Shown piece by piece: positions 5,797 through 39,405 of a stretch of 51,929 nt of DNA. Positions within the stretch are counted from its first letter, which is position 1; every line of letters begins with the position of its first letter. The DNA is from Burkholderiaceae bacterium. GTDB lineage: Bacteria > Pseudomonadota > Gammaproteobacteria > Burkholderiales > Burkholderiaceae_C. Position numbers and translations under genes: made by a program. The notes under the pieces are model-generated. The model had not been told where the DNA came from, searched no databases, and was given only the letters and a program-made list of their open reading frames with translations. The DNA lies in assembly GCA_016790175.1 (NCBI GenBank), contig JAEUPI010000061.1, forward strand, positions 1-51,929, in the 5' to 3' direction.

Positions 5797-5847
5797 GCGC
5801 GGCATTGTGGCAGCCGCCTGCCCGGCCACGCGTGGCGGCAATGAGGG

Positions 5848-6456: not shown

Positions 6457-8777
6457 TCCTCGCGTTTCGGAACGAGGATGTCCCGGTTGCCGTTGCTCGC
6501 CATCGAGCTTACGAGTCCGGCATTCTCCATTTGTTCCAGCAGCCGTGCGGCGCGGTTGTAGCCGATGCGCAGGTGGCGCTGCACCAGCGAGATCGACGCC
6601 CGCCGATGCTGCAGCACGATGGAAACGGCCTGGTCATACATCGGGTCGGCTTCGGCGTCGGCCCCGCCCAGGCCGCCTTCGATCGCCGCCGCCGCATCGC
6701 CTTCGAGCGTGCCGCCCTCGAGAATGCCCTCGATGTAGTTCGGCTCGCCCTGCTGGCGCAGGTAGTCGACCACACGGTGCACCTCCTCGTCGGAGACGAA
6801 CGCACCGTGCACGCGCACCGGCAGTCCGGTGCCGGGCGGCAGGTACAGCATGTCGCCTTGGCCCAGCAGCGCCTCGGCGCCCATCTGGTCGAGGATGGTG
6901 CGGCTGTCGATCTTGCTCGACACCTGGAACGCGATGCGCGTGGGGATGTTGGCCTTGATGAGACCGGTGATCACGTCCACGCTCGGGCGCTGCGTCGCGA
7001 GGATCAGGTGGATGCCGGCCGCGCGCGCCTTCTGCGCCAGGCGGGCGATCAGTTCCTCGATCTTCTTGCCGACCACCATCATCAGGTCGGCCAGTTCGTC
7101 GATCACCACCACCAGATGCGGCAACCGCTCGAGCGGCTCGGGCGATTCCGGTGTCAGGCTGAACGGGTTGGGAATCAGCTCCTTGCGTTCGGCGGCCTCG
7201 GCGATCTTGCGGTTGTAGCCCGAGAGATTGCGCACGCCGAGCTTGCTCATCAGGCGGTAGCGCCGGTCCATCTCGCCGACGCACCAGGTCAGCGCGTTGG
7301 ACGCCTGCTTCATGTCGGTGACCACCGGGCACAGCAGGTGCGGAATGCCCTCGTAGACGCTCATCTCGAGCATCTTGGGGTCGATCAGGATCAGGCGCAC
7401 GTCGCGCGCCTCGGCCTTGTAGAGCAGGCTGAGGATCATCGCGTTGATGCCCACGCTCTTGCCCGAGCCGGTGGTGCCGGCCACCAGCAGGTGCGGCATC
7501 TTCGCGAGGTCGGCCACCACCGGGTTGCCGACGATGTCCTTGCCCAGTCCGAGCGTGATCTGCGAGGCCGCGTCGTTGTAGACCTCGGAGCCGAGGATCT
7601 CGGCCAGGCGGATCGTCTGGCGCTTGGCGTTGGGCAGCTCCAGCGCCATGAAGTTCTTGCCGGGGATGGTCTCGACCACGCGGATGCTCACCAGCGACAA
7701 CGAACGCGCCAGGTCCTTCGCGAGGTTGACCACCTGCGCGCCCTTGACGCCGATGGCGGGTTCGATCTCGTAGCGCGTGATCACCGGGCCGGGCGACGCG
7801 GCCACCACGCGCACGTCGACTCCGAAATCCTTGAGCTTCTTCTCGATCAGCCGGCTGGTCATCTCCAGCGACTCGGGCGTCACCGTCTCCAGGCGGCCTG
7901 GCGCGGCGTCGAGCAGGTCCACCTGCGGCAGCTTGGCATCGGCCAGCTCGCTGAACAGCGGCTTCTGCCGCTCCTTGGCCACGCGCTCGGACTTCGGAAT
8001 CTCGACGACGGGCTTTTCGATGTGCAACGGCAGGTGCTCGTCGACGTCGACCCGGTCGCCGGCCACGAGTGACTCGCGCTCGCGCTGCGCCTCGAGGCCG
8101 ATGCGAATGTCTTCGGCACGCTCCTGGGCTTCTTGGCGGCGCTCGCGCCAAGCATCGAACCACAGGCCGATGCGATCGGCAACGCCGAGCCACGAGAAAC
8201 GCAGCGCCAGCGATACGCCCAGCACCAGCGCGGCGATCCACGCCACGCCAGACCCCGCGAATCCCAGCCAGCGCATCGAGAACGGCCCGAGCAACGCTCC
8301 GACCACGCCGCCCGCCTGACCGCCCGGCAGCTGCGCGTCGAACCGGTACAGGCGTGTCCACTCGAGCGCGCAGCTCGCCGCCATCAGCATCACGAGTCCG
8401 AGCCAGAACGCCGCACGTGAACCTGCGACCGGCTGGGGAGGCGCGCCGTGCGCGCGCAACCACCGTGCCAGCGCCGACAACCACAGGCGCAGTCCCACCA
8501 GCGGCAGCCACCATGCCGAGTAGCCGAACAGGAACAGCGCGATGTCCGACACCCACGCGCCCAGCTGGCCGGCCTTGTTGCGCACGGAATCGCTGGCACC
8601 GGTGGTCGAGAACGCCGGATCCCCGGCCTGGTGCGTCACCAGCGCCAGGAAGAGCAGCAACCACAGCACGCCGCCACCCACGAGGGCCAGCTTGCTGCGC
8701 CATGCGGTGGCGCCCTGCCCGCCCAGCGAGCCGGCTGCGGCGCCGTCTGCGCCCAGAGATCCCAGCGGAAACGTCAT
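6453..8777 (-). CDS. ftsK: DNA translocase FtsK
   Basis: The 774-residue protein has a hydrophobic N-terminal quarter with about four membrane segments that anchors it at the septum. A short linker follows, then the motor domain: Walker [15 protein letters not shown], Walker [17 protein letters not shown], and the block [19 protein letters not shown]. The last 65 residues form the gamma winged-helix that reads KOPS, including [20 protein letters not shown]. FtsK moves the chromosome terminus through the closing septum and activates XerCD at dif. The linker is short compared with the 1,300-residue E. coli protein, as usual in betaproteobacteria. It is the first gene of ftsK-lolA-rarA. Confidence 0.97.
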
Positions 8778-11297: not shown

Positions 11298-12530
11298 TCA
11301 GGCCTGCGCCGCCCTCAGGCGCAGAGCGAAATCCTGCAGCATCGCGATGCCGCTTTCCTCCGCCTTCTTGCACCAAGCCTGCAGTTCGGCCACCAGCTGC
11401 GGCGCCGACACGTTGGTGCGGGTCCACAGCAGCCGGAGCTCCTCGCGCATCGCCACCAGCTTGGCGAGCCTGGGGGCCTCGCACATCGCGCTGGCCAGCT
11501 TCGGCTTCACCTCGAGCGGGATCTTGTCGTCGTCACGATGCAGCCAGCGCCGCGCCAGACGCATGTTGGCCAGCCTGGCGCCGGTGGCTGCACCCTGCTC
11601 GCGCAGGTGTGCGAGCTCGGCGCCGCAGACTTGACGCAGCTGCTTGGCGTAGTGGGCCATGACCTCGTAGCGGTTGGCGATCAGCGCCTCCAGCGAGCGC
11701 GAATCGGCCTCGGCGCGAACATTGCCCAGTGCCAGTTTGGGCGGGGTCTTGCGCACCTTGGCCAGACCCAGGGTCTCCAGGGCGCGGATGTAGGCCCAGC
11801 CGATGTCGAACTCGTAGGGCTTGACCGACAGCTTGGCCGACGTCGGATAGGTGTGGTGGTTGTTGTGCAGTTCCTCGCCGCCGATGATCACGCCCCAGGG
11901 CGAGATGTTGGTCGAGGAATCGGGCGCCTCGAAATTACGGTAGCCCCAGTAGTGTCCGATGCCGTTGATGATGCCGGCCGCCGTGATCGGGATCCAAAGC
12001 ATCTGCACCGCCCAGACCGTGGCCCCGATCGCGCCGAACAGCATCACATCGACGATCAGCAGCAGGCCCACGCCCTGCCACGAGAAACGGCTGTAGAGCT
12101 GGCGCTCGAGCCAGTCGTCGGGCGTGTTGTGGCCGTACTTGGAAAGCGTCTCGGCATTCTTCGCCTCGGCGCGGTAGAGCTCGGAGCCCTTCCAGAACAC
12201 GGTCTCGATGCCCTTGGTGATCGGGCTGTGCGGATCGTCGACCGTTTCGCACTTGGCGTGGTGCTTGCGGTGGATCGCCACCCATTCCTTGGTGACCATG
12301 CCAGTGGTGAGCCACAGCCAGAAGCGGAAGAAGTGCGACGGGATCGCATGCAGCTCCAGCGCACGGTGGGCCTGTGCGCGGTGCAGGAAGATCGTCACCG
12401 ACGCGATCGTGATGTGCGTCGTGATCAGCGTGAACAGCAGAATCTGCCACCAGGCTGCTTCGGCCAACAGGCCATTGGCGAGCCAGTCGATCACGGTGCC
12501 GAACACCACGGAGAGTTCATTCATTGACAA
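11298..12530 (-). CDS. Membrane acyl-CoA/acyl-lipid desaturase (delta-9 type)
   Basis: The 410-residue protein has hydrophobic segments near residues 25-45, 65-80 and 155-195 and the three histidine boxes of membrane di-iron desaturases: HRAQAH (HxxxxH), HRKHH (HxxHH) and HNNHH (HxxHH). It fits the stearoyl-CoA 9-desaturase family that makes monounsaturated fatty acids in the inner membrane using oxygen. After the third box there is a cytoplasmic tail of about 170 residues rich in Ala, Arg and Leu, longer than in minimal desaturases. The start could be 12530 or the second Met at 12524. It is monocistronic and convergent with rpmG. Confidence 0.9.
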   Translation of the reverse strand: MSMNELSVVFGTVIDWLANGLLAEAAWWQILLFTLITTHITIASVTIFLHRAQAHRALELHAIPSHFFRFWLWLTTGMVTKEWVAIHRKHHAKCETVDDPHSPITKGIETVFWKGSELYRAEAKNAETLSKYGHNTPDDWLERQLYSRFSWQGVGLLLIVDVMLFGAIGATVWAVQMLWIPITAAGIINGIGHYWGYRNFEAPDSSTNISPWGVIIGGEELHNNHHTYPTSAKLSVKPYEFDIGWAYIRALETLGLAKVRKTPPKLALGNVRAEADSRSLEALIANRYEVMAHYAKQLRQVCGAELAHLREQGAATGARLANMRLARRWLHRDDDKIPLEVKPKLASAMCEAPRLAKLVAMREELRLLWTRTNVSAPQLVAELQAWCKKAEESGIAMLQDFALRLRAAQA

Positions 12531-12651
12531 GCCTTTGGGTCCCGGACGTCGGGGTCGCCGGATTCTAGGGGAGCGTTACAAGTTGGCCACTGCGGGCAAC
12601 GCGTAGGTTTCCCCGGGTTGATTCGCTTTATCGACTTGACTTAGAGCAGGA

Positions 12652-13911
12652 TCAAGCCCGGCGCTGCCAGATTGCCGCGAAGAAACCGTCGGTTGCATGT
12701 CGATGCGGCCAGAGCCGCAGCTTCCTATCGACCACAAGTCCCGACACGTCGGCGATGTGGCGATGCAACACCTCGGCAGCACCCACCGGGCGGAAATCCG
12801 GCTGCGATCGGTCGAACATGGCGGCGACCTCCTCGTTCTCAAGCCGCAACAGGCTGCAGGTCGCATAGACCAGCCGCCCACCGGGCTTCAGCAAGCGTGC
12901 GGCCGAGGCGAGGATCGCGTCTTGTTGCCGGCGCAGGGCGGCAACGGTGTCGGGTGTCTGACGCCACTTCAGGTCGGGGTTGCGGCGCAAGGTGCCGAGC
13001 CCTGAGCACGGTGCATCCACGAGGACCCGGTCGATCTTCCCGGCCAGACGTTTGACGCGCTCGTCGCGCTCGTGGGCAATCTGCACCGGATGCACGTTGG
13101 ACAGGCCGCTGCGCGACAGGCGCGGCTTCAATGCCTCGAGCCGGTGGCCGGAGGTGTCGAAGGCGTAGAGGCGGCCTGTGCTGCGCATCATCGCGCCGAG
13201 CGCCAGCGTCTTGCCGCCGGCGCCGGCGCAGAAATCCACCACCATCTCGCCGCGCCGGGGATCCACCAGCATCGCGAGCAACTGACTGCCCTCGTCCTGC
13301 ACTTCGAACATGCCCTCCTTGAACAGCGGCAACCGGTTCACGGCCGGGCGACCCGCGATGCGCAGGCCCCAGGGCGAGTACGGCGTCGGCGCGGCGGCGA
13401 TGCCCTCGCTCTGCAGCGCGATCCGCACGTCGTCGCGCCGGGCCTTCATCGTGTTCACGCGCAGGTCGAGCGGCGCCGATGACTGCAGCGATTCGGCCAG
13501 GGCCTGAAACTCCGGGTCACCGAGCTCGTGCCGCAGTGCCTCGGCCAGCCAGGTCGGCAGGTTGTGGCGCAGCTTGTCGGGCAGGCTGGCCAGGTCGACC
13601 GCCCGCACGGCCGCGAGCCACTCGCGCTCGTGCGGCTCGAGCGCCGACTGCAGTGAGCGCTCCTCGCCCTGCCAGCCCGCGATCGCCAGACGCCGCTCGA
13701 GCGGGCCGCTGCCGCTTTGTGCCAGATGCTGAAGTCGCAGGCGTTGACGCAGCACGGCGTACACGGTCTCGGCCAGCGCGTGCCGCTCGCGCGGCCCCAG
13801 CGCGCGCTGCTTCTGGAAGTAGGCGGAGACGATGCCGTCGGCGGGCGCGTCGAAGGTCAGCACCGCACGCAGCAGTTCGGTCGCGCGCTCGAGCAACGCG
13901 GCAGGCGGCAT
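12652..13911 (-). CDS. rsmB: 16S rRNA (cytosine-967 C5)-methyltransferase RsmB
   Basis: Started at the ATG at 13911 (MPPAALLERATELLRAVL), the protein has 419 residues, the normal RsmB size. The N-terminal third is the NusB-like RNA-binding domain; the rest is the SAM methyltransferase with FCAGAGGKTLALGAMM, the catalytic-cysteine motif DAPCSGLGTLRRNPDLKWR and the second-cysteine motif YATCSLL. These two cysteines define m5C methyltransferases. The frame stays open far upstream through purN, but the start 12 nt after the purN stop gives the right N-terminus. It forms a two-gene unit with purN. Confidence 0.94.
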   Translation of the reverse strand: MPPAALLERATELLRAVLTFDAPADGIVSAYFQKQRALGPRERHALAETVYAVLRQRLRLQHLAQSGSGPLERRLAIAGWQGEERSLQSALEPHEREWLAAVRAVDLASLPDKLRHNLPTWLAEALRHELGDPEFQALAESLQSSAPLDLRVNTMKARRDDVRIALQSEGIAAAPTPYSPWGLRIAGRPAVNRLPLFKEGMFEVQDEGSQLLAMLVDPRRGEMVVDFCAGAGGKTLALGAMMRSTGRLYAFDTSGHRLEALKPRLSRSGLSNVHPVQIAHERDERVKRLAGKIDRVLVDAPCSGLGTLRRNPDLKWRQTPDTVAALRRQQDAILASAARLLKPGGRLVYATCSLLRLENEEVAAMFDRSQPDFRPVGAAEVLHRHIADVSGLVVDRKLRLWPHRHATDGFFAAIWQRRA

Positions 13912-13925
13912 CGTGGACGTCGCCG

Positions 13926-14552
13926 CTACAGCAGCAGTTGCGGTTCGCCGTCGAGTTGATGCACGATCCGGCTCTCGATGCGCAGACGGTCGTTCACGAA
14001 CCAGCGCACCGCGCGGGGATAGATCCTGTGCTCGGTGGCGAGCACGCGGGCCGCGAGCGCAACTTCGTCGTCGTCGTGCCGCACCGGCACCACCGACTGC
14101 ATGACGATCGGGCCATGGTCGAGGTCGGCCGTCACGAAGTGCACCGTGGCCCCGCTCGCCTTGCAGCCGGCCTCCAGTGCACGGCGATGCGTGTGCAGCC
14201 CGGGAAACGCGGGCAGCAGCGACGGGTGGATGTTCATCATGCGGCCTTCGTAGCGGCGGACGAAGCCGGCGCCGAGAATGCGCATGAATCCGGCCAGCAC
14301 CACCAGATCCGCACCGTGATGATCGATGCGTGCGGCCAGTGCTTCGTCGAACGCTTCGCGATCGGCGAAGGCCTTGTGTTCGACGGCCTCGGTCGCGATG
14401 CCATGCGACGCGGCCCAGCGCAACCCCGCCGCCTTCACGGTGTTGGCGATCACGGCCACCACCTGTGCGGGCCAGGACTCGGCGCGGCAGGCATTGACGA
14501 TCGCCTCCATGTTGGAGCCGCGGCCCGAGATCAGGATGACGATGCGTTTCAT
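13926..14552 (-). CDS. purN: Phosphoribosylglycinamide formyltransferase PurN
   Basis: The 208-residue protein begins MKRIVILISGRGSNMEAIVN, where the GRGSN loop binds the GAR phosphate. The catalytic block is intact: NIHPSLLPAFPGLHTHRRAL with the Asn-His pair, and TADLDHGPIV with the catalytic Asp. It transfers a formyl group from 10-formyl-THF to GAR in purine synthesis. I chose the ATG at 14552, which matches the family N-terminus. It is divergent from trpS with only about 70 nt between the starts and is followed by rsmB. Confidence 0.96.
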   Translation of the reverse strand: MKRIVILISGRGSNMEAIVNACRAESWPAQVVAVIANTVKAAGLRWAASHGIATEAVEHKAFADREAFDEALAARIDHHGADLVVLAGFMRILGAGFVRRYEGRMMNIHPSLLPAFPGLHTHRRALEAGCKASGATVHFVTADLDHGPIVMQSVVPVRHDDDEVALAARVLATEHRIYPRAVRWFVNDRLRIESRIVHQLDGEPQLLL

Positions 14553-25690: not shown

Positions 25691-25768
25691 CGTGGACCTC
25701 TCGTGCGATGACGAAGCGACTGCGGGGCGCAAGGGTAACCGTTGCGACGCGCCGTTGCAGGCGCATGC

Positions 25769-27595
25769 CTACCAGGTGTCGACGAACGGCCGGCGCGGCG
25801 GCAGCGCACGCGTGCGCGCGACCGCGAGCACGCGCTGCAGCCAGTCGCGCGTGTCGGCAGGGTCGACCACGTCGTCGATCTCGAGGTGGCTCGCCATGTT
25901 GAGTGCCTGTCCGCGCTCGCGTGCCTGGGCCAGCAGCTGCTCGAACAGCGCCTGCCGATCGGCCTCCGGCGCCGCCGCGAGCTCCTTGCGAAAACCCAGC
26001 CGCACCGCTCCGTCCAGACCCATGGCGCCGAACTCCGCCGCCGGCCAGGCCGCGGTGGCCACCGGGGCGTGGAAATGGCCCGCCGTCATGGCCATCGCGC
26101 CGAGGCCGAAGCCGCGTCGCAGCACCACCGAGACCACCGGCACCCGCAAAGACGCGGCAGTCACGAACAGCCTGCCGGCGTGTCGCATCATGCCCTGCGC
26201 CTCGACCGCCGGGCCGACCATGAAGCCCGGCGTGTCGACGAGCGTGATCAGCGGCCAGCCCGCGGCATCGACCCACTGCATGAAGCGCGCGAGCTTGTCG
26301 CAGCCGTCGACGTCGAGCGCGCCGCCCAGGTGGCGCGGATTCGTTGCGGCGAAAGCCACCGGATGCCCGCCCAGCCGCGCCAGCACGGTCACCACGCCGG
26401 CGCCGAACTCGGCGCGCAACTCGAGCAGGCTCTCGCGATCGGCGATCGTGCGCAGAACCGCGCGCGGGTCGAACAGCGCCTGCCGGCCGGGCGGAATTGC
26501 GTGACGCAGTGCGGCCTGGTCGTCGGCGCCGGTATCGGGCAGCGCGCCGTGGTGCCACGCCAGCAGCTGCCGCGCGGCGCGCACGGCCTGCACCTCGTCG
26601 TCGACCAGCAGGTCAATGGCGCCGGCCTTGGCCAGCACCGGCGCCGGCCCCACGTCGGCCGGTGCCACGACGCCAAGGCCGCCGCCCTCGATCATCGCCG
26701 GGCCGCCCATGCCGATGCTGGCACCGCGCGTGGCAATCACCAGGTCGCAGCTGCCGAGCAGGGCCGCATTGCCCGCGAAACAGTAGCCTTCGACGATGCC
26801 GATGCGCGGCACCACGCCCGACAGGGCCGCCAGACGGTGAAAGGTGGTGCAGTCCAGGCCCGCCACCACCGGCCAGTCGACGTCGCCCGGACGTCCGCCG
26901 CCACCCTCGGCGAACAGCACGAAGGGCAGCTGCCGGTCGGCCGCGACTTGCAGCAGGCGGTCGGACTTCATGTGGTTGAACGCGCCCTGCGTGCCGGCCA
27001 GGACCGAATAGTCGTACGCCATCGCGGCGCAGCGCGCACGCTCGGCGCCGAACGCCTCGGCATGCACCGTGCCGATGCCGGTGACGAGGCCGTCGGCCGG
27101 CGTGTTTTTCTGCAGGTCGTCCACGCTGCGGCGGCTGCGCTGCGCGGCAATGGCAAAGCCGCCGTATTCGACGAAACTGCCGTCGTCGAACAGCGCAGCG
27201 ATGTTCTCGCGCGCCGTGCGTCGACCCTGCGCATGGCGCTGCGCCACCATGTCGGGCCGCGCCGCGTCGTCGAGCAGCGCGCGCCGTCGGCGCCATGCGC
27301 CCAATGTCGGTGGCTCCTCGCCCGCCGCCGGCTGCGACGACTGCGTCGCCGGCGGCAGCGGCGCCGCGATCGACGCATCGAGCTCGACCAGCACGTCGCC
27401 GATGTCCACCGCGTCGCCAGGCACCACGTGCAGTCGCAGCACGGCGCCGTCGGCCTCGGCCTCGATCGGGAACTCCATCTTCATCGACTCCAGACGCAGC
27501 AGCACGTCGCCGCGCCGCACCGGGGAACCCGGCGTGCAGTCGATGGTGGTGACGGCGCCTTGCACGGTGGCCCGGTGCGAACGGATGCGGCTCAT
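25769..27595 (-). CDS. Biotin carrier-carboxyltransferase fusion of an acyl-CoA carboxylase
   Basis: From the ATG at 27595 the protein has 608 residues (a GTG at 27625 is an alternative). Residues 1-75 are a biotinyl/lipoyl domain with the biotinylation motif ESMKMEF (Lys39). A Pro/Ala-rich linker follows. Residues about 105-608 are a two-lobe carboxyltransferase of the PccB/AccD type, with RENIAALFDDGSFVEYGG, oxyanion loops near GGGRPGD and VDTPGFMVGPAVEAQG, and MAMTAGHFHAP. It transfers carboxyl from biotin to an acyl-CoA. The carrier domain usually sits on the biotin carboxylase subunit; here it is on the transferase. No biotin carboxylase gene is in the window. Confidence 0.88.
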   Translation of the reverse strand: MSRIRSHRATVQGAVTTIDCTPGSPVRRGDVLLRLESMKMEFPIEAEADGAVLRLHVVPGDAVDIGDVLVELDASIAAPLPPATQSSQPAAGEEPPTLGAWRRRRALLDDAARPDMVAQRHAQGRRTARENIAALFDDGSFVEYGGFAIAAQRSRRSVDDLQKNTPADGLVTGIGTVHAEAFGAERARCAAMAYDYSVLAGTQGAFNHMKSDRLLQVAADRQLPFVLFAEGGGGRPGDVDWPVVAGLDCTTFHRLAALSGVVPRIGIVEGYCFAGNAALLGSCDLVIATRGASIGMGGPAMIEGGGLGVVAPADVGPAPVLAKAGAIDLLVDDEVQAVRAARQLLAWHHGALPDTGADDQAALRHAIPPGRQALFDPRAVLRTIADRESLLELRAEFGAGVVTVLARLGGHPVAFAATNPRHLGGALDVDGCDKLARFMQWVDAAGWPLITLVDTPGFMVGPAVEAQGMMRHAGRLFVTAASLRVPVVSVVLRRGFGLGAMAMTAGHFHAPVATAAWPAAEFGAMGLDGAVRLGFRKELAAAPEADRQALFEQLLAQARERGQALNMASHLEIDDVVDPADTRDWLQRVLAVARTRALPPRRPFVDTW

Positions 27596-27739
27596 GGGTC
27601 TCGTGTAGGCGGGGTTGAAGGACACCGCGGATTGTGCGGTCGCCGCTGTCCGGCCGGCGGTGGCGGATCGAGACCGACGCCGAACCCGCTAGACTGGCCG
27701 CCGCCTCACAGCGCCGCCCGTCTCCCAGCGGCGCCCGAC

Positions 27740-30388
27740 ATGACCACCCAGACCGCTTCGCTCGATGCTGTTGCCGTGGCCCTTGCGGTGGCCGATGCGC
27801 AAGGCGTCGTGCACACGGTCAACGCGGCTTTCTCGGCATTGACCGGCTGGCAACTGCATACCCTGCCCGGACGCCGGCTCGACACGTTGTGCGGTCCGAC
27901 GGAATCGTCGGCTGTGCAACGGGCCATTGCCGACGGCACGGCAGTCGATGGCGTCGACCTCGCCTGGCGGCATGCCCGCGACGCCGACATGCTGCCCGTG
28001 AGAATTCACGTTCGCCTGATCGGCGCCCTGCGCTGCGTGACCGTGCTCGACCGGCGCATCGGGCACCACGCCGCCGAGGCCGACGCCGCGCAGGCCCAGT
28101 TGGCGCTGGCGCTCGAGCTCGGCGGCATCGTCGTCTGGCGGCAAGATCTTCGAAGCAACCGGCTGCACTACAACGAACCGGGCTACCGCATCCTCGGGCT
28201 GACGCCGCGGCCCGAAGGCCTCACGCTCGACGAGGTGCGTGCGCTGATTCATCCGGACGACCTGCCGCAGGTGCGTGCCGCGATGGAGCGCGCGTTGACC
28301 AGCACGGAGCCGGTCGACATGGAGGCGCGCTATCGGCGCGCCGACGGACAGTGGCTCGACATCGTGACGCGCCGTGTGACCCGGCGCGACGAGAGCGGCC
28401 AACCGATCGAATTCCTCGGTGTGGCGATCGACCTCACCGGCAGGCTGCGCGAGGAGCGCCGCACGGCCGAGCTGGCACAGCGGCTGGAGTTGGCGGCGGC
28501 GGCCGCCGGCGTGGGCGTCTGGTCGTACAACTTCGGTGATCGCCATGCACACTGGAACGCGCAGATGTTCGCGCTGCACGGTCTGCCCCATCGCGGCGAG
28601 CCGCCGGACTGGCCGACCTACGTGCAGACCCATGTGCATGCCGACGATCGCGCACAGGTGCTGGAGCGCATGCGAACGCTGGTCGACGGCGGCGACGACC
28701 GTGTGGCACAGACCTTCCTGCGCATCGTGCGCTCCGACGGTGCCGAACGCGAGCTCTCGGCTCGCGTTCGCGTGATCCGGGATCAGGGGCGCATGCAGAT
28801 GATCGGCGCGATGACCGACGTCACCGAGCAGCGTGCCGAGCGCCAGGCGCTGTTCGAGGCGCATGCCCGCGAGGCCCTGGCCGTGCGCTCGGTGGGCTTT
28901 GGCTTCTGGGAGCGCGACGAGATCACCACCGAGGCCACCTGGGACGAGCAGATGTGGCGCCTGCGCGGCCTCGAGCCGCAAGGCCCCGCCGCGCCGAGTT
29001 ACGAGGCGCATCTGGCGATGGTGCATCCGGACGACCGGCCCCGGCTCGATGCCGAGTACCACGCGGCGCGCGGCGAACGCCGGCCGTGGAGCGTCGAGTT
29101 CCGCGTGCGTTGGCCCGACGGCAGCTGGCGCTGGCTGGCGTCGAGATCGACGCCGCTGTTCGACGACGACGGGCGCGAGGTCCGCCGCATCGGCGTCAAC
29201 TGGGACATCACCGACGCCCGCAGCGCCGAGGCCGCCCGCCAGGAGCAGCTGGCGGCGCGCCGCGAGAGCCAGGCCAAGTCGGCCTTCCTGGCACGCATGA
29301 GCCATGAACTGCGCACGCCGCTGCATGCGGTGATCGGGTTTGCCCAGCTGCTCGCGAACGACTCCGCCATGGCCTGGAGCAACGACGCGCGCGAACGCCT
29401 GCAGCACATCCACGCCGCCGGCCAGCACCTGTTGGCGCTGGTCAACGACGTGCTCGACCTGTCCAGCCTCGACGCCGGCGACGTTCGGCTCGAAACCCGC
29501 CCCGTGCCGCTGCGCCAGGCCGTCGACGCGGTGCTGCCGATGGTGGCCGCGCAGGCCGAGGCGCTCGAGGTCACGATCGGCTGCGCCGCACTGGATCACA
29601 CGCTGCTGGTCGATCCGACGCGGCTGCGACAGGTCCTGCTGAACCTGCTGACCAATGCAGTGAAGTACAACCGCCGCGGCGGCCGGGTCGACATCGACGC
29701 CCACGCCGACGGCCAGATGGTGGTGCTGGAGATCCGCGACACCGGACGTGGCATGAACGCCCAGCAGCTGCCGCATGCGTTCGAGCCGTTCAACCGCCTG
29801 GGCATGGAGCGCGAGGCCATCGAAGGCACCGGCATCGGCCTGGCGATCGTGAAGATCTACGTCGAGCGAATGGGCGGAACGGTCAGCGTGAGCAGCACGC
29901 CCGGCGAGGGCAGCCGGTTCGACGTTCGGCTGCCGGCGCCGGTCGCGTTGCAGCCGGCGGTCGCCGCTGCGCCGGCGCCGGCACCGGTGTCCGTCTCCGC
30001 GAGCCCTGGCGGCCACGCACGCGTGCTCTACATCGAAGACAACCCGGTCAACGCGTTGATCGTGCGCGAGTTGATCGCGCAGCGTCATGACTTGAAGCTC
30101 GACGAAGCGGCCAACGGGCTCACCGGCATCGAGCGTGCTCGCCGATCGCCTCCGAACCTGATCCTGCTGGATATGCAACTGCCCGACATCGACGGCATGG
30201 AGGTGCTGCGCCGGCTGCGCGCCGACGCGTCGACGGCGTCGATCCCGTGCATCGCGCTGTCGGCCAACGCGATGCCCGACGACATCCAGAACGCCCTGGG
30301 AGCGGGCTTCGCCGACTACTGGACCAAGCCGCTTGATTTTCGCGTGTTCATGAACGCGCTCGACTCGCTGTTCGGCAAGGCGGTGTGA
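27740..30388 (+). CDS. Soluble multi-PAS hybrid sensor histidine kinase with C-terminal receiver
   Basis: Started at the ATG at 27740, the protein has 882 residues and no membrane segment. Four PAS-type repeats cover about residues 5-505 (for example GGIVVWRQDLRSNRLHYNEP and GFWERDEITTEATWDEQMW). The HisKA phospho-site is His522 in MSHELRTPLHAVIGF. The ATPase domain has LLNLLTNAVKYNRRGG (N box), RDTGRGMN (G1) and EGTGIGLAIVK (G2). The receiver (about 757-875) has VLYIEDNP, Asp811 in LLDMQLPD, and the Lys in YWTKPLD. It is an intact cytoplasmic hybrid kinase; its output partner is not in the window. It contrasts with the degenerate hybrid at 37.2 kb. Confidence 0.93.
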   Translation: MTTQTASLDAVAVALAVADAQGVVHTVNAAFSALTGWQLHTLPGRRLDTLCGPTESSAVQRAIADGTAVDGVDLAWRHARDADMLPVRIHVRLIGALRCVTVLDRRIGHHAAEADAAQAQLALALELGGIVVWRQDLRSNRLHYNEPGYRILGLTPRPEGLTLDEVRALIHPDDLPQVRAAMERALTSTEPVDMEARYRRADGQWLDIVTRRVTRRDESGQPIEFLGVAIDLTGRLREERRTAELAQRLELAAAAAGVGVWSYNFGDRHAHWNAQMFALHGLPHRGEPPDWPTYVQTHVHADDRAQVLERMRTLVDGGDDRVAQTFLRIVRSDGAERELSARVRVIRDQGRMQMIGAMTDVTEQRAERQALFEAHAREALAVRSVGFGFWERDEITTEATWDEQMWRLRGLEPQGPAAPSYEAHLAMVHPDDRPRLDAEYHAARGERRPWSVEFRVRWPDGSWRWLASRSTPLFDDDGREVRRIGVNWDITDARSAEAARQEQLAARRESQAKSAFLARMSHELRTPLHAVIGFAQLLANDSAMAWSNDARERLQHIHAAGQHLLALVNDVLDLSSLDAGDVRLETRPVPLRQAVDAVLPMVAAQAEALEVTIGCAALDHTLLVDPTRLRQVLLNLLTNAVKYNRRGGRVDIDAHADGQMVVLEIRDTGRGMNAQQLPHAFEPFNRLGMEREAIEGTGIGLAIVKIYVERMGGTVSVSSTPGEGSRFDVRLPAPVALQPAVAAAPAPAPVSVSASPGGHARVLYIEDNPVNALIVRELIAQRHDLKLDEAANGLTGIERARRSPPNLILLDMQLPDIDGMEVLRRLRADASTASIPCIALSANAMPDDIQNALGAGFADYWTKPLDFRVFMNALDSLFGKAV

Positions 30389-30398
30389 GCGCTGCAAC

Positions 30399-33053
30399 AT
30401 GGACTCCGTATCCCCCGACGACAACTACCTCTGGCTCGAAGATGTCGAAGGTGACGCGGCGCTCGGCTGGGTCCGCGAACAGAACGCCCGCTCGCGGCGG
30501 CAGCTCGAACAACATCGCGCCTTCGGCGCGATGCGCGACGAGATCCGCGACGTGCTCGACTCGCGCGACCGCATCCCGGCGGTCGTGCGTCGCGGTGCCT
30601 GGCTGTTCAATTTCTGGCAGGACGCCGCGAACCCGCGCGGCTTGTGGCGGCGCACCACGCTCGACGAGTTCCGCAAACCCGAACCGGCCTGGGAGGTGCT
30701 GCTCGACATCGATGCCCTCGGTCGCGTCGAGGACGTCAACTGGGTCTGGGCCGGCGCCAGCTGCCTGGGCCCCGCCTATTCGCGCTGCCTGGTCAACCTG
30801 TCGCGCGGCGGCGCCGATGCGAAGGTCGTGCGCGAGTTCGATCTCGACGAACGTCGCTTCGTCGACGGCGGCTTCACGCTGCCCGAGGCCAAGAGCCGCA
30901 TCGACTGGCTCGATGTCGACACCGTGCTCGTCGGCACCGACTTCGGCCCGGGCTCGCTGACCGATTCGGGCTACCCGCGTGAGGTCCGGTGCTGGCGCCG
31001 CGGCCAACCGCTCGCCGAGGCCGAGACGATCTTCGCAGCCGAGCGCAGCGATGTCTCCGCGCACTTCAGCATCGACCACACACCGGGCTTCGAGCGCGTG
31101 GTCGTCGAACGCGCCATCGACTTCTACAACACGAAGTCATGGTTGTGGCGCGACGGCCGCCTGCAGCCAATCGACAAGCCCGACGACGCCCAGCTCTACT
31201 TCTGGCGCGAACGAATGCTGATGATGCTGCGCAGCGACTGGCCGCTCGGCATGCGGCGTCACGCCAGCGGCAGCCTGCTGAGCGCGGACGCTGCTCGCTA
31301 CGAGGCCGGCGGGCGCGAGCTGCACGTGGTGTTCGAGCCGACGGCCACCTGCTCGCTGGCCGACTTCGCGGCCACTCGCAGCCGGCTCGTGCTGAACATC
31401 AGCGACAATGTCGCCAGCCGGCTCGAGGAATGGCAAGTCGACGGCACGCGCCGCGCCGTGGCCGCCGACTTCCCGGGCACGATCCAGATCAGTGCGCTGC
31501 ATGACCCATTGGTGGTCGACGACGCGCTCGCCGAGCACTATCTGCTCGGCTATTCCGACTTCCTGACGCCCGACACGCTCCATCTGGCACACACGGGCAG
31601 CGATGCCCATGAACGCCTGAAGTCGCGGCCTGCGTTCTTCGACGCGGCCGGCATGCGCGCCGAGCAGCGGTTCGCCGTCTCGCGCGACGGCACAAGGGTG
31701 CCCTACTTCGTGATCGGGCCCGCGGGCTCGAGCAGCAACGGCACCCGTCCCGTGCTGTTGTACGGCTACGGCGGCTTCGAAGTACCGTTGCAGCCCTGGT
31801 ACTCCGGCGCATTCGGTCGCGCCTGGCTCGCGCGCGGGGGTGTGTTCGTCGTGGCCAACATTCGCGGTGGCGGCGAGTTCGGTCCCGCCTGGCACCAGGC
31901 AGCGATCCTCGAGCGCAAGCAGAACAGCTACGACGATTTCGTGGCGGTGGCCGAGGACCTGATCGCGCGCGGCACCACCAGCGCCCGGCACCTCGGCATC
32001 GAGGGTGGCAGCAACGGCGGGCTGCTGGTCGGCGCCGTGATGCTGCAGCGGCCCGAACTGTTCGGCGCCGTGGTCTGCCAGGTGCCTCTGCTGGACATGC
32101 GGCGCTACCACCGACTGTTGGCCGGTGCCTCGTGGATGGCCGAGTACGGGGATCCCGACCAGGCGGCTCAATGGGCCTGGATCTCGCGCTACAGCCCGTA
32201 CCAGAACGTGCGCGCCGGCATGAAGCTGCCGCCCGTGCTGTTCATCACCAGCACGCGCGACGACCGCGTGCATCCAGGCCATGCACGCAAGATGGCCGCG
32301 CGCATGCTCGAGCAGCACCACGACACGCTGTACTACGAAAACATCGAAGGCGGCCACGGTGCCGCGGCCGACAATGCGCAGAAGGCCGACATGATGGCGC
32401 TCGAGTTCGCCTTCCTCTGGCAACGGCTCGGCCCTCGCACGCAAGAGCAGGCTCAGCCCGGGAGACACGCACTGAACCACGACGCGCAGCAGGTGCTCGA
32501 CTTCTGGTTCGGCCGGCCCGGCGACGCCGAGTACCACCGGCCGCGCGAGTCATGGTTCCGCAAGGACCATACCTTCGACGCGCAGATCCGCGATCGCTTC
32601 GGTGCGCTGATCGAACGGGCGCTGGCCGGCGAGCTGGCGTCCTGGGCGGCGCATCCGGCCACCGCGGTGGCGCAGATCCTGGTGCTGGATCAGTTCACCC
32701 GCAACGTCTTTCGCGGCACGGCCCGTGCGTTCGCGGGCGATGCGCTCGCACTCGCCGCGGCCCAGGCGCTGGTGGTTGGCGGCGCCGACCGCTCGATGCC
32801 CGGTGTGCGTCGGCAGTTCGTGTACCTGCCCTTCGAACACAGCGAGGATCTCGCGATGCAGGAGGAATCGATGCGCCTGTTCGCGCAGCTGGCCCGCGAC
32901 GAACCGACGCTGGCCGATGCGGCGACCTGGGCCGACAAGCACCGCGTGATCATCGCGCGCTTCGGGCGCTTTCCGCATCGCAATGCCGCGCTCGGCCGGG
33001 CGTCGACGGCCGAGGAGGTCGAGTTCCTGAAGCAGCCCGGCTCAGGCTTTTGA
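30399..33053 (+). CDS. Prolyl oligopeptidase (S9) fused in frame to a DUF924 domain
   Basis: A single 884-codon frame starts at 30399 (MDSVSPDDNYLWLEDVEGDA). Residues 1 to about 682 form a complete S9A oligopeptidase: beta-propeller region, then the hydrolase with Ser538 in EGGSNGGLLVG, Asp621/622 in TRDDRVHPGH and His653 in EGGHGAAAD. Residues 692-884 are a complete DUF924 domain (VLDFWFGRPG, LDQFTRNVFRGTARAFA, FGRFPHRNAALGRAS). No stop separates them, and no ATG exists near the junction, only a CTG at 32472 with GGGAG upstream. There is no signal peptide. The S9 half should cut short peptides; DUF924 has no known activity. Its last 12 nt overlap the convergent ligase gene. Confidence 0.88.
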   Translation: MDSVSPDDNYLWLEDVEGDAALGWVREQNARSRRQLEQHRAFGAMRDEIRDVLDSRDRIPAVVRRGAWLFNFWQDAANPRGLWRRTTLDEFRKPEPAWEVLLDIDALGRVEDVNWVWAGASCLGPAYSRCLVNLSRGGADAKVVREFDLDERRFVDGGFTLPEAKSRIDWLDVDTVLVGTDFGPGSLTDSGYPREVRCWRRGQPLAEAETIFAAERSDVSAHFSIDHTPGFERVVVERAIDFYNTKSWLWRDGRLQPIDKPDDAQLYFWRERMLMMLRSDWPLGMRRHASGSLLSADAARYEAGGRELHVVFEPTATCSLADFAATRSRLVLNISDNVASRLEEWQVDGTRRAVAADFPGTIQISALHDPLVVDDALAEHYLLGYSDFLTPDTLHLAHTGSDAHERLKSRPAFFDAAGMRAEQRFAVSRDGTRVPYFVIGPAGSSSNGTRPVLLYGYGGFEVPLQPWYSGAFGRAWLARGGVFVVANIRGGGEFGPAWHQAAILERKQNSYDDFVAVAEDLIARGTTSARHLGIEGGSNGGLLVGAVMLQRPELFGAVVCQVPLLDMRRYHRLLAGASWMAEYGDPDQAAQWAWISRYSPYQNVRAGMKLPPVLFITSTRDDRVHPGHARKMAARMLEQHHDTLYYENIEGGHGAAADNAQKADMMALEFAFLWQRLGPRTQEQAQPGRHALNHDAQQVLDFWFGRPGDAEYHRPRESWFRKDHTFDAQIRDRFGALIERALAGELASWAAHPATAVAQILVLDQFTRNVFRGTARAFAGDALALAAAQALVVGGADRSMPGVRRQFVYLPFEHSEDLAMQEESMRLFAQLARDEPTLADAATWADKHRVIIARFGRFPHRNAALGRASTAEEVEFLKQPGSGF

Positions 33054-34878: not shown

Positions 34879-36507
34879 TCAGTCGCCTCTGGCTGCTCGT
34901 CGCGCCCGGTCTTCCACCGCACGCACCTTGACGCACTGCGGATGGCTCTGGAATACCGGTTTCTCGCATTCGCGCACGAGGCAGCGATGCAAGGCGATCA
35001 GGTGGCGTCCGGCGCAGTTGTCGCGCGGCGCGCCGGGCTCGAGGCGCGCTGGCGGCGGTGTCTCGGCCGCTGCCGCCGGTGGCGGCGGCAGCGCGGCGTC
35101 GGCTCCTGCATCGCCGCCGGTTGCGGTCGCTGCAGCAACGGGCCGACGCACCGGCGCACGAACCCGCGGTGGCATCGGCGCAGGACTCGAAGCGAGTGAC
35201 CTGGCATCAGGCAAGCCCGTTGTCGATTCAGCCGCGGACACGACGTCCGCCCGCTCGGGGACCGCAGGCGCAGCACCAGCCGGCGTGACCGCTGCCGTCG
35301 CCGCCGGCGCCACCGCATGGCCAGCGTTCCCGACCTCGGCAGATGTCGGGTCGGCGGGTGCCGGCCCGCGGACCACCGAGGCCAGCGGAGGCGGGTCCTG
35401 TTCGTCGATGGCCCACCAGAGCCCGGCCGCAGCGGCCGTCGATGCCACTGCGAGCGCGAGCACGATCGGCCAGACACCGGTGCGCCGCCGCGGCGCTGCA
35501 GGCAGTGGCACGTCGAAGTCGACGGCGACGTCGGGCGCGGCCTGCGTGACGGTGTTCTGCCACGCCGTATCGGGCACCGGCGGGCTCGACCGCTCGCGCC
35601 GCGGCACCGGCATCGTCGCAGCCAGCGCCGCACGCACCTCGGCGGCGTTCTGCGGGCGATCCGAAGGGCGCGGAGCGATCATCCAGTCGCACACCTGCAG
35701 CAGCACGTCGGACAGACTACCCTGCCCCGTACCTGCCAGCGGCGGCTGGTCGTCGTGCAGGGCCCGCGCGGTGGCCGCCATCGGCGGGCGTCCGGTGATC
35801 AGGAAGTGCAAGGTCGCGCCGAGCGCATAAAAGTCGGTCCATGGCCCCTGGCGCATGCCGGTCGATTCGGCGTACTGCTCCAGCGGTGCATAACTCGGCT
35901 TCAGGATGGCGGTCAGGGTCTGGCTGCGGTCGCTGATCACCCGACGCGCGGCGCCGAAGTCGAGCAGCACGGGCGCCCCATCGTCGCCGACCAGGATGTT
36001 GTCGGGCGCGATGTCGCGGTGGTACACCGCTTCGCGGTGCATCACCTCCAGCGCGCCGAGCAGGCGATCCAGCACCTTGCGCAGCCAGGCCTCGTCGGGC
36101 GCACCCTGCAGCGCCTGCCGCCACTGGCGCAGCGTGCGTCCGCGGTACAGCGGCATCGCCATGTAGGCGGTGCCGTTGTCCTCCCAGAACCGGTGCACCT
36201 TGAGCAGCGACGGATGATCGAAGCGCGCCAGCAGCCGGGCCTCGTTGACGAACGAGGCGAGTCCGATCGCAAACGTCTCGGCGTGCGATTGCGACAGCAG
36301 CGACACCTGCTGGCGACTGGTGCGCCCCGCCAGCGTCGACGGCATGTACTCCTTGATCGCGACCGCGCGCTGCAGCGAGTGGTCGAAGGCCCGGTACACG
36401 ATACCGAAGCCGCCGATCCCGATCACGCCCTGGAGCTCGAACTCGTGCAGCCGGTGACCGACCGGCAATGCGTTGATGCTGTCCAGGCTCGCGACCGCGG
36501 TGTTCAT
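34879..36507 (-). CDS. Membrane-anchored serine/threonine protein kinase
   Basis: From the ATG at 36507 the protein has 542 residues. Residues about 20-285 are a Hanks-type kinase: glycine loop GIGGFGIVY, ATP-lysine Lys52 in VAIKEYMP, catalytic HRDIAPDNIL and LLDFGAAR. After a linker comes one membrane helix (TGVWPIVLALAVASTAAAAG) and a periplasmic Pro/Ala-rich stretch. The last about 45 residues have four cysteines spaced C-x10-C-x4-C-x10-C (NCAGRHLIALHRC... ECEKPVFQSHPQC), suggesting a disulphide-bonded helical hairpin. It should phosphorylate cytoplasmic Ser/Thr targets in response to a periplasmic signal. No phosphatase gene is adjacent. Confidence 0.92.
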   Translation of the reverse strand: MNTAVASLDSINALPVGHRLHEFELQGVIGIGGFGIVYRAFDHSLQRAVAIKEYMPSTLAGRTSRQQVSLLSQSHAETFAIGLASFVNEARLLARFDHPSLLKVHRFWEDNGTAYMAMPLYRGRTLRQWRQALQGAPDEAWLRKVLDRLLGALEVMHREAVYHRDIAPDNILVGDDGAPVLLDFGAARRVISDRSQTLTAILKPSYAPLEQYAESTGMRQGPWTDFYALGATLHFLITGRPPMAATARALHDDQPPLAGTGQGSLSDVLLQVCDWMIAPRPSDRPQNAAEVRAALAATMPVPRRERSSPPVPDTAWQNTVTQAAPDVAVDFDVPLPAAPRRRTGVWPIVLALAVASTAAAAGLWWAIDEQDPPPLASVVRGPAPADPTSAEVGNAGHAVAPAATAAVTPAGAAPAVPERADVVSAAESTTGLPDARSLASSPAPMPPRVRAPVRRPVAAATATGGDAGADAALPPPPAAAAETPPPARLEPGAPRDNCAGRHLIALHRCLVRECEKPVFQSHPQCVKVRAVEDRARRAARGD

Positions 36508-36658
36508 GATCCGATCGAGCTTACGCGAAGGCCCTGCGCGCCACGGGCCCGGTCGGCGCACGCTTTCGTGACCGGCTTCTCGCCACACCTGCCTGCGGCA
36601 GCCTCACCCGACCTGCTGCCTAGAATGCTCATTTGTCGCTCGCCGCGGATGTGACCAC

Positions 36659-37210
36659 GTGTTGCCGTTGATCGACCCACCGGCCGGACCCCCGCGACGG
36701 CATGGACTGTCGCGTCGCCGCTGGCTGGGCCTGGCACTGAGCATGACGACGTTCGACGCCTTGCGGGCGCAGGAGCTGCCGGAACCCGATGGACAGGTGG
36801 TGCTCACGCTGTCGGGCAAGATCCGGCGCACCAATCGCGGGGCGAACGCGGTGTTCGACATGGCGATGCTGGCGGCCTTGCCCCAGCATCACATCACGAC
36901 TCGGACACCCTGGTACGTCCAGCCGCGCAAGTTCACCGGGCCGCTTCTGCGTGATGTGCTCGCACTGGCTCTCGCCCAGGCGCAGACGCTGCGGGTCACG
37001 GCGCTCAACGACTACCGCATCGACATCCCTTTCGACGACGTCCAGCGCTACGACGTGGTGCTCGCACGACTGCTCGACGACATGCCGATGACGGTGCGCG
37101 AGAAAGGCCCGCTGTTCATGATCTACCCGTTCGACAGCGTGCCCACGCTGCGCAACGCCCGCTACTACAGCCGCTCCGTATGGCAGCTGATCTCGATCGA
37201 ATTGCTGTGA
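36659..37210 (+). CDS. Secreted SUOX-like (molybdopterin-domain-related) small protein without cysteine, COG3915-like
   Basis: This 183-residue protein uses a GTG at 36659, downstream of a TAGAAT at 36621-36626. The N-terminus has a twin-arginine-like SRRRWLGLAL and then a short hydrophobic stretch, suggesting export. The mature part (VVLTLSGKIRRTNRG, TALNDYRIDIPFDD, EKGPLFMIYPFDS) resembles a piece of the sulphite-oxidase molybdopterin domain. It has no cysteine at all, so it cannot supply the Mo-ligating thiol and is unlikely to be a molybdoenzyme. It overlaps the following hybrid-kinase gene by 4 or 31 nt depending on the start, so the two are probably co-translated and may work as binding protein and sensor. 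Confidence 0.75.
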   Translation: MLPLIDPPAGPPRRHGLSRRRWLGLALSMTTFDALRAQELPEPDGQVVLTLSGKIRRTNRGANAVFDMAMLAALPQHHITTRTPWYVQPRKFTGPLLRDVLALALAQAQTLRVTALNDYRIDIPFDDVQRYDVVLARLLDDMPMTVREKGPLFMIYPFDSVPTLRNARYYSRSVWQLISIELL

Positions 37211-39405
37211 ACGGCGCACCGGCGCGCTCGCCCTGGTTCGGCATCGCCGGCGCGGTGCTGCTGATCACGCTGCTGGCCGCGATCGCGGTGCAGGTGCGCC
37301 AGGTGCTGGTGCTCGACGAAACCACGCGGCACCAGAACGACTACCTGGTCGTCAATCTCCACCAGTCGGAGATCGACTACCTGCGCCTGCGCGAGGCATG
37401 GTCGTCGGCCATGGTCGATCCTGCCACCGCACGCGACAGGCTGCAGACGCGCTACGACATCTTCGTCAGCCGCACCAGCCTGTTGCGCACCGAGGCATCG
37501 GACCGGCTGTTCGGCCAGCGGGCCGGGCACAGCGCGCTGCTGCGACAACTCGACGGCTTCGTGCAGCGGGCCGATCTGTATTTCGCGCAATCGCCGCGTG
37601 CCGAGTTCAGCACGGCGTCGCTGCAGGCGCTGTTGGCCGAGCTGCAGGCGCTGGATGCGCCGTTGCACCAGCTGCTGCTCGACGCGTCGCACCAGGTGGC
37701 AGAGGATCTGACCGAGCGCAATGCGTCGGTGCGCGTGCACAACCGCATCGGCCTGGCGCTGACCGCCGCGCTGCTCGTGCTGTTGCTGGTGTTCGGTCAG
37801 CTCGCGATGCGCCGCTTGCGGCAAGTGCAGGAGTCCCGCGCCACGGCCGAGGCGCTCGCCTCGCGCCTGCAGGACGCTCGTGCCGAGCTGCTGCGGGCCG
37901 GCCAGGCGCGCAGCGAGTTCCTGGCGCAGATGAGCCAGGCCATCCGCACGCCATTCCACGGCCTGATCGGCACGCTCTCGCTGTTGCAGGAATCGCGGCT
38001 CGACGCGCGACAGCAGGAGCTGCTGCACCAGGCCGACGATGCCGCGTCGCAACTGCTGGCGCTGATCAACGACATCCTCGACCTCGCGCGACTCGATGCC
38101 GGCGCCCTTCGGCTGTTGCCGCAGCCGGTGGACCCACGCGCGCTCGTCCAGGCCGTCGAGCATCCGGCCCGCGCACAGGCCAGTGCCAAGGGCCTCGCCC
38201 TGCGCATGCATGTCGATGCGCAACTGCCGAGTCGTGTGCTGCTCGATGGCGCGCGTGTGCGACAGATCCTGCACAACCTGCTCGGCCAGGCGATCCGCGA
38301 CACGGCGATCGGCAGCATCGACCTGCGCGTCGGGCTGGACCCTCAGACCCCGGTGCTCGTGTTCGAGATCGCCGATACCGGCGCCGCGATCGATGCCGCC
38401 GAGCTGCAGAGCCTGTTCGACCCCGCCGGCCCAGCCGGCGCGACGCGCTCGCGCCGGCTGGCCGGGCCTGCATTGGAGATCGCGCGCAAACTCGCCCGCC
38501 TGATGGGCGGCGACCTGGAGGCCCGCAGCACGCCGGGCGAAGGCAACACCTATATGCTCAGGCTGCCCTTCGCGAGCGCGATCGAAGTGCCACCGACGGC
38601 CGAGGGTGCGGCCGAGGCTTCGCGCGCCGCGCCACGCGCGCTGCAGATCCTGGTGGCCGAAGACCACCCCGTCAACCGCCGCTACTTCGCCTCGCTGCTC
38701 GAGCTGCTCGGCCATCGAGCCATCTTCGTCGACGACGGCTGGCAGGCCGTGGAGGCGGTGCAGGCGCGGAGCTTCGACCTCGTGCTGATGGACGTGCACA
38801 TGCCGGTGATGGACGGCATCGTCGCCACGCGCACGATCCGCGCCCTCGAGGGGCACGACGCAAGCCTGCCGATCGTGGCGCTCACCGCCGACGACCAGGC
38901 TGAAACGCGCGAGCGCTGTCTTGTCGCGGGCATGCAGGAGGTGCTCACCAAGCCGGTGAGTCTGGTGGACCTGAAGGCCCTGCTGGTCCGGCACTTCGGT
39001 TCGGCGGCCGGCCTGTCGGCTGCCGCGCCGGCGACGGATGGCAGCGCGCAGGCCAAGCCGCTGATGGACCCCGCGGCGCTCGCGCGCCTGCTCGAGCTGA
39101 TGCCGCGCAAGGAGAGCGCTGCGCTGTTCGTCACGCTCCTGTCGCAGGCCGCCGAGGCCTCGACACGCATGCGGCGCGCGTTGCGCGAGGCCGATGCTGC
39201 CGAGCTGGAGCACGCGTCGCAGGGCGTGAAAGGTGCGGCGCTGAACCTCGGGTTGCGTGCCCTGGCCGAAGCGGCAGAAGAAATCCGCGTGCACGCCGCC
39301 ACGCTGAACGCGACGGCGCTGGCCCTCGCGCTGCAGCGATACGACGAGACGCTGGAGGCCACGCGCGAGCTGTGCCGGGCCGAATCGCTGCTCGACGGAA
39401 CCTGA
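37180..39405 (+). CDS. Degenerate membrane hybrid histidine kinase with intact receiver (His to Gln in both HisKA and HPt)
   Basis: The protein has 741 residues from the ATG at 37180; a GTG at 37207 in a GTGA overlap is an alternative. Two membrane helices (about 20-40 and 190-207) enclose a periplasmic helical sensor. The dimerisation segment reads MSQAIRTPFHGLIG, with Gln253 where the phospho-His should be. The N box is LLGQAIRDT (Asn to Gln370) and the G2 loop lacks GTGLGL. The receiver (about 488-610) is intact: AEDHPVN, Asp538 in LMDVHMPVMDG, ALTAD, LTKPVS. A C-terminal HPt-like domain has Gln681 in QGVKGAALNLG in place of its His. It cannot act as a normal phosphorelay kinase; the receiver may take phosphate from another kinase. 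Confidence 0.88.
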   Translation: MAADLDRIAVNGAPARSPWFGIAGAVLLITLLAAIAVQVRQVLVLDETTRHQNDYLVVNLHQSEIDYLRLREAWSSAMVDPATARDRLQTRYDIFVSRTSLLRTEASDRLFGQRAGHSALLRQLDGFVQRADLYFAQSPRAEFSTASLQALLAELQALDAPLHQLLLDASHQVAEDLTERNASVRVHNRIGLALTAALLVLLLVFGQLAMRRLRQVQESRATAEALASRLQDARAELLRAGQARSEFLAQMSQAIRTPFHGLIGTLSLLQESRLDARQQELLHQADDAASQLLALINDILDLARLDAGALRLLPQPVDPRALVQAVEHPARAQASAKGLALRMHVDAQLPSRVLLDGARVRQILHNLLGQAIRDTAIGSIDLRVGLDPQTPVLVFEIADTGAAIDAAELQSLFDPAGPAGATRSRRLAGPALEIARKLARLMGGDLEARSTPGEGNTYMLRLPFASAIEVPPTAEGAAEASRAAPRALQILVAEDHPVNRRYFASLLELLGHRAIFVDDGWQAVEAVQARSFDLVLMDVHMPVMDGIVATRTIRALEGHDASLPIVALTADDQAETRERCLVAGMQEVLTKPVSLVDLKALLVRHFGSAAGLSAAAPATDGSAQAKPLMDPAALARLLELMPRKESAALFVTLLSQAAEASTRMRRALREADAAELEHASQGVKGAALNLGLRALAEAAEEIRVHAATLNATALALALQRYDETLEATRELCRAESLLDGT

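Follow-up and report, generated by a model that had tools for sequence, protein, structure and literature searches.

A probable hybrid sensor pseudokinase encoded beside a predicted PruR-type pterin-binding protein in an uncultured relative of Ideonella

Results

Organization of the locus

The window, by which we mean the whole analysed stretch of 51,929 nucleotides (contig JAEUPI010000061.1 of assembly GCA_016790175.1), belongs to a MAG of 3.93 Mb and 82% completeness, the sole genome of its species, from an uncultured bacterium related to Ideonella. On the forward strand, an ORF of 183 aa (36659–37210), predicted to encode a PruR-type periplasmic pterin-binding protein with a SUOX fold, lies directly upstream of a gene for a probable hybrid sensor pseudokinase of 741 aa (37180–39405), which its 3′ end overlaps by 31 bp. 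The 741-codon frame of the kinase gene is open, with no internal stop or frameshift, as the preliminary description of this DNA had stated, and its composition by codon position is normal (GC3 88%). A Ser/Thr protein kinase gene (34879–36588, reverse strand) adjoins the pair and lies on the same side in many relatives; at many loci this gene stands upstream of the pair and MurB and YajQ genes stand downstream. Elsewhere in the window, a single frame of 884 aa (30399–33053, forward strand) fuses a prolyl oligopeptidase and a DUF924 domain.

In the kinase gene, an N-terminal membrane and periplasmic sensor region with a linker (residues 1–239; 37180–37896), helical in the AlphaFold secondary structure, is followed on the same forward strand by a HisKA/DHp domain (residues 243–308; 37906–38103; Pfam E = 6e-17), a HATPase_c/CA domain (residues 356–465; 38245–38574; Pfam E = 2.4e-15), a receiver domain (residues 490–601; 38647–38982; Pfam E = 8.7e-26) with Asp538 at 38791–38793, and an HPt domain (residues 651–724; 39130–39351). 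The last was matched by Pfam Hpt at E = 0.0025, under the curated cut-off, and also in a search of its own genome (39130–39357; 22.6 bits, under the cut-off). The AlphaFold model of the kinase has a histidine kinase-like DHp–CA fold with ShkA (6qrj), DivL (4q20) and RetS as top fold matches; because active orthologues are present in the alignment behind this model, retention of the fold is partly assumed in it, and the lid (residues 415–427) is modelled at a confidence below 50.

The upstream gene

The PruR-type gene was not part of the preliminary description. Its product has only a sub-threshold match to Pfam Oxidored_molyb, and its assignment comes from structure and profile comparison. Among structures searched with Foldseek, its AlphaFold model (pLDDT 88) matched the PruR structure 7rkb best (E = 7.1e-19, TMt 0.97, 44% identity), and the profile of its family matched 7rkb at E = 2.4e-53 and found the same PruR entries as the fold search. 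The protein has no Cys after residue 30. Its Tyr119 and Trp175, invariant in the alignment of its family, fall opposite LNDY and SAWQ in 7kos, the correspondence being by alignment and not by crystal numbering. It thus combines the features of PruR, namely a SUOX-type pterin-binding fold of about 170 aa, absence of the molybdenum-ligating Cys and presence of the pterin-site Trp and Tyr. A role as a molybdenum enzyme was considered and is ruled out by the missing Cys and the PruR fold.

A PruR homologue was found at 39 of the 44 homologous loci. Locus L026 holds a second PruR–kinase pair across MurB (5402–8283 and 12153–14233), a tandem or nearby paralogous pair in which the PruR proteins are 52% and the kinases 38% identical. 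In the PruR-DTB branch of these systems, PruR is paired with sensor kinases, and the DTB regulators contain HisKA and HATPase domains and in some cases a receiver, as the available text of the source has it (PMC13259868). The cytoplasmic part of the window kinase is of this kind by Pfam (HisKA, HATPase_c, receiver), though it appears catalytically dead. The window kinase lacks the WX7E motif reported for the periplasmic domain of the PruR partner and has V58 and D66 at the corresponding positions; WX7E occurs at that column in 13 of the 44 homologues. Because WX7E is missing, we call the pair PruR-DTB-like and not a full member of PruR-DTB.

Loss of catalytic and relay residues

Forty-four homologues, drawn from the genus, the family and GTDB species, were aligned with the window kinase. 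Duplicates of L009, L021 and L026 (L019, L100 and L103, respectively) were removed before counting, and residues 1–193 of L010 were excluded because they are non-homologous. A wider alignment used 29 of 80 loci (L019–L047), of which the 44-homologue alignment took L020–L036. Active orthologues are common: at E ≤ 1e-100, 63 of 399 family genomes gave a match, and of these 63 only genomes with a locus entered the alignment. In a 19-row tree, the window kinase and L010 form a sister pair with a support of 100.

The preliminary description had reported Gln at both phospho-His sites, and the alignment bears this out. Gln253 (CAG, 37936–37938) stands where all 44 homologues have the phospho-His of the H box, and Gln681 (CAG, 39220–39222) where His is found in all 34 homologues holding the HPt column; the H-box His is likewise present in 36 of 36 rows of the wider alignment other than the window. 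The claimed erosion of the ATP-binding site is also apparent. Gln370 (CAG, 38287–38289) replaces the N-box Asn of 43 of 44 homologues; only the sister L010 differs, having His (CAC). The G2 loop is reduced to a remnant, LAGPA (residues 427–431; 38458–38472), two residues shorter than in L010 and with L430P and G431A. That exactly the two relay histidines were lost, as had been proposed, holds only in so far as both are gone, for the second Gly of the G1 box is replaced as well (Gly403Ala, DTGVG to DTGAA; 38386–38388), and a third His, present in 13 of 13 other members of the core set, has become Gln at position 291 (CAA, 38050–38052). Ala254 takes the place of the acidic residue that follows the H-box position. 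Since Ala254 also occurs in L009 and L011, both of which still have His in the H box, this change is older. The receiver is intact, as described before, and keeps E494/D495, D538, T569 and K591.

Judged from the aligned sequences, the losses of His253, His681 and N370 are a derived state, chance being excluded by the counts of 44/44, 34/34 and 43/44. Absence of the HisKA phospho-His together with degraded ATP-binding motifs is what characterizes a pseudo-histidine kinase, and the 741-aa protein is very probably a pseudokinase that would have no autokinase activity, in agreement with the earlier proposal. Codon 370 reads AAC in relatives, CAC in L010 and CAG in the window. Because the N box is also lost in L010, this series suggests a stepwise path in which damage to the ATP site preceded the loss of the relay histidines.

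The double Gln (253 and 681) was found in this MAG only, and the check whether Gln at both sites is conserved across genera came out negative, every aligned homologue having His. Among 150 family genomes, a Gln H-box pattern gave 5 matches in 5 genomes, of which 2 were in histidine-kinase frames by translation (the window and L142), and the His pattern gave 1066 matches in 130 genomes. L142 (G057:C113), from a different genus, has the Gln H box MSQELRTP, although its N, G1 and G2 motifs seem intact, and represents a separate H-box loss.

A relay might still work if other histidines had taken over, the candidates being His260 of the DHp helix and, in the HPt domain, His678 (39211–39213). His260 lies seven residues further along the same helix as position 253, and His678 lies three residues, one helical turn, before Gln681, with the sister L010 showing the arrangement Gln678/His681; a shifted His has been proposed for Caulobacter CCNA_03265 in the available text (PMC11481889). 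This is improbable, however, as the ATP site is degraded too, in the N box, G1 and G2. Moreover, His260 is an old residue that only some homologues share (His in 27, Asn in 9 and Gln in 8 of 44), and His678 is without counterpart in L010 (Gln), L009 and L011 (both Arg).

Errors of assembly or base calling were also weighed, since the sequence comes from a single draft MAG, a change from CAC to CAG takes one base, and the G005 contig carrying the sister gene looks chimeric. Against this, the changes, at least five separate ones and all in frame, fall only on catalytic features of a single gene, the codon-position composition is normal and the neighbours are conserved, so that we consider such errors a highly unlikely source of the pattern. 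As the G005 contig may be chimeric, it is uncertain whether pruR is truly missing from it. At locus L137 on this contig (G005:C257, 2523–5487), the N-terminus of the sister kinase is swapped in frame for a membrane stretch that by eye is YeeE/YedE-like, and an adjoining ABC-ATPase frame continues into an apparent kinase tail.

Distribution of changes among domains

Scoring used the sites at which all 13 core-set members other than the window are identical, and a change was counted where the window differs. Changed invariant sites in the window numbered 6/24 in DHp, 8/36 in CA, 1/39 in the receiver, 1/28 in HPt and 9/47 in the sensor region, so that the kinase core (DHp and CA) has 14 of 60 changed, and the sole changed site of HPt is its phospho-His. 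The corresponding counts for DHp, CA, receiver and HPt were 3/21, 2/30, 2/40 and 3/30 in the sister L010, 0/18, 1/29, 3/41 and 3/30 in L009, and 1/19, 0/28, 0/38 and 1/28 in L011. In the upstream PruR-type partner, 1/44 sites were changed in the window, 5/48 in L009 and 3/46 in L011. With p values taken as guides only, because related sequences are not independent, Fisher's test separated the core from receiver plus HPt (p = 0.0008), from receiver, HPt and PruR together (p = 4e-5), and in a stricter 28-row set (12/49 in the core versus 1/33, p = 0.012).

Rates of change gave a weaker contrast. Terminal branches of the window versus L010 were 0.45 versus 0.18 for DHp, 0.66 versus 0.39 for CA and 0.26 versus 0.30 for the receiver; the HPt branch was likewise longer in the window (0.34 versus 0.215). 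Relative-rate tests of the window against L010 showed significant acceleration in no domain. When the core was compared with receiver plus HPt, the rate difference had p < 0.05 with two of six outgroup choices (L021, 0.013; consensus, 0.043; L099, 0.077; L102, 0.26; L011, 0.54; L009, 0.66). Since these results are mostly non-significant, rates by themselves do not establish retention. Our reading of the alignments is that the bulk rate is barely raised, that the losses appear aimed at conserved kinase positions, and that the receiver and the partner still seem to be constrained.

The main rival is that the gene is on its way out, with a fairly recent inactivation of the kinase and loss of the entire pair under way, as in two congeners. 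The pair, a point that the preliminary description also did not cover, is missing from its syntenic place in 2 of 5 congeners: in G001 (85% complete), about 190 bp separate MurB from the Ser/Thr kinase gene and the pair is not between them, and in G003 (68% complete), an unrelated 605-aa ORF occupies its place. Both genomes are incomplete, but both retain the syntenic place, and the pair is therefore dispensable in the genus. Confinement of the two Gln to this MAG and the weak relative-rate asymmetry, as a recent event would give, point the same way, and a gene in the course of being lost is a possibility we take seriously while thinking it the less probable course of events. Decay should strike all domains alike; at the core rate of 14/60, receiver, HPt and PruR, which have 111 invariant sites between them, would be expected to show about 26 changes, and they show 3. 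The kinase frame, moreover, is open across 741 codons. Whole-gene decay is thus disfavoured by the concentration of changes in the kinase core and the constraint on receiver, HPt and PruR.

The preliminary description had argued for selection rather than decay, and it had held that orthologues with His at both sites would make this a single decaying allele. Such orthologues were found, but decay does not follow from them, because the pattern of constraint contradicts simple decay. The argument for selection stands in that the losses gather in the kinase core and fit whole-gene decay poorly; it is weakened by the relative-rate tests and by decay as its main rival.

Discussion

We propose that the locus encodes a PruR-DTB-like pterin-sensing pair whose kinase turned pseudokinase in one lineage and has been kept for a non-kinase job, a reading that we hold at about even probability. 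Retention for such a job is favoured by losses at five separate catalytic features within one open frame. Counting against it are the single MAG, the His of all homologues, the weak relative-rate tests, the longer HPt branch, the 9/47 changes in the sensor region, the dispensability of the pair in the genus and a partner that was not found.

Given the PruR-type partner, the input of the kinase is likely to be a pterin. By analogy with PruR–DcpA of Agrobacterium, PruR would bind a reduced pterin in the periplasm, contact the sensor region and shift the helical bundle. The ancestral pair was probably an ordinary phosphorelay. With ATP site, H-box His and HPt His gone, phosphate would be neither made nor passed on, and the protein would act by binding. 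Its receiver, the sole intact phospho-site, may be charged in trans or may compete for the phosphate of another relay, and its availability could be set by pterin-bound PruR. More tentatively, and with a probability we put clearly below even, the protein may be a pterin-gated pseudokinase that gave up its transmitter, so that the PruR–pterin signal would be read out only through a trans-phosphorylated receiver, which would form a ligand-controlled receiver or phosphate trap in another phosphorelay. Alternatively, it might form mixed dimers with an active kinase. Scaffolding of another kinase, and a receiver serving as regulated output or phosphate sink, were suggested in the preliminary description and would be candidate roles. 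The genome holds 10 other HPt matches, 9 of them above the cut-off, which could be phosphate donors. No close paralogue that might serve as a partner was found in the genome (82% complete), the best being 37% identical. A large PAS-containing hybrid kinase (HisKA, HATPase_c, receiver; 25742–30388, forward strand), about 7 kb upstream, is a candidate partner by proximity only.

As far as the available texts of the sources go, several known systems resemble parts of this one. In Agrobacterium, PruR serves DcpA as its periplasmic pterin-binding partner. PruR–DcpA and PruR-DTB share with our locus a two-gene arrangement in which a SUOX-fold PruR devoid of Cys precedes a membrane regulator; DcpA differs in its c-di-GMP output, and PruR-DTB differs in that here the kinase appears inactivated, an HPt without His follows and WX7E is missing (PMC13259868). 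DivL of Caulobacter, which our model matches in fold, also has its phospho-His replaced, by Tyr, shows no autokinase activity and works by binding; it differs from the window protein in that its N, G1, F and G2 boxes can still be recognised, it carries neither a receiver nor an HPt, and its Tyr, in contrast to the Gln described here, is shared by its homologues (PMC4211667). The Caulobacter hybrid kinase CCNA_03265/CC3162 is reported to lack the conserved His and to keep the receiver Asp, and trans-phosphorylation by an HPt or heterodimerisation has been proposed for it; the available text mentions no ATP-site loss, dead HPt or PruR link (PMC11481889). RcsD is kept without a phospho-His in its kinase domain but has a working HPt, the mirror image of the window protein (PMC3762810), and the plant pseudo-HPt AHP6, with Asn for His, acts as an inhibitor but is free-standing (PMC6518804). 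RetS of Pseudomonas, among the best fold and sequence matches of the window protein, is a hybrid kinase that heterodimerises with another kinase, although the available text does not describe it as lacking the phospho-His (PMC12189002). Together, DivL, CCNA_03265, RetS, RcsD and AHP6 show that such parts can work by binding. Absence of the phospho-His is uncommon, affecting 722 of 76,471 HisKA and 90 of 10,312 Hpt domains in the survey, as far as its available text reports (PMC12632262).

Pairs of the PruR-DTB type are already known, and what appears to be new here is a lineage in which the kinase has been inactivated; a literature search of partial coverage found no described PruR-DTB with a dead kinase. 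Both phospho-His and the ATP site have been lost, with the receiver constrained, in a locus for which active orthologues are common across the family. A natural before-and-after series from kinase to pseudokinase is thereby at hand, made up of intact relatives, the sister in which the N box alone has changed, the window protein and congeners without the pair. The finding would also link pseudokinases to pterin signalling, the kinase-type branch of which is described, in the literature we found and as far as its available text goes, by bioinformatics only.
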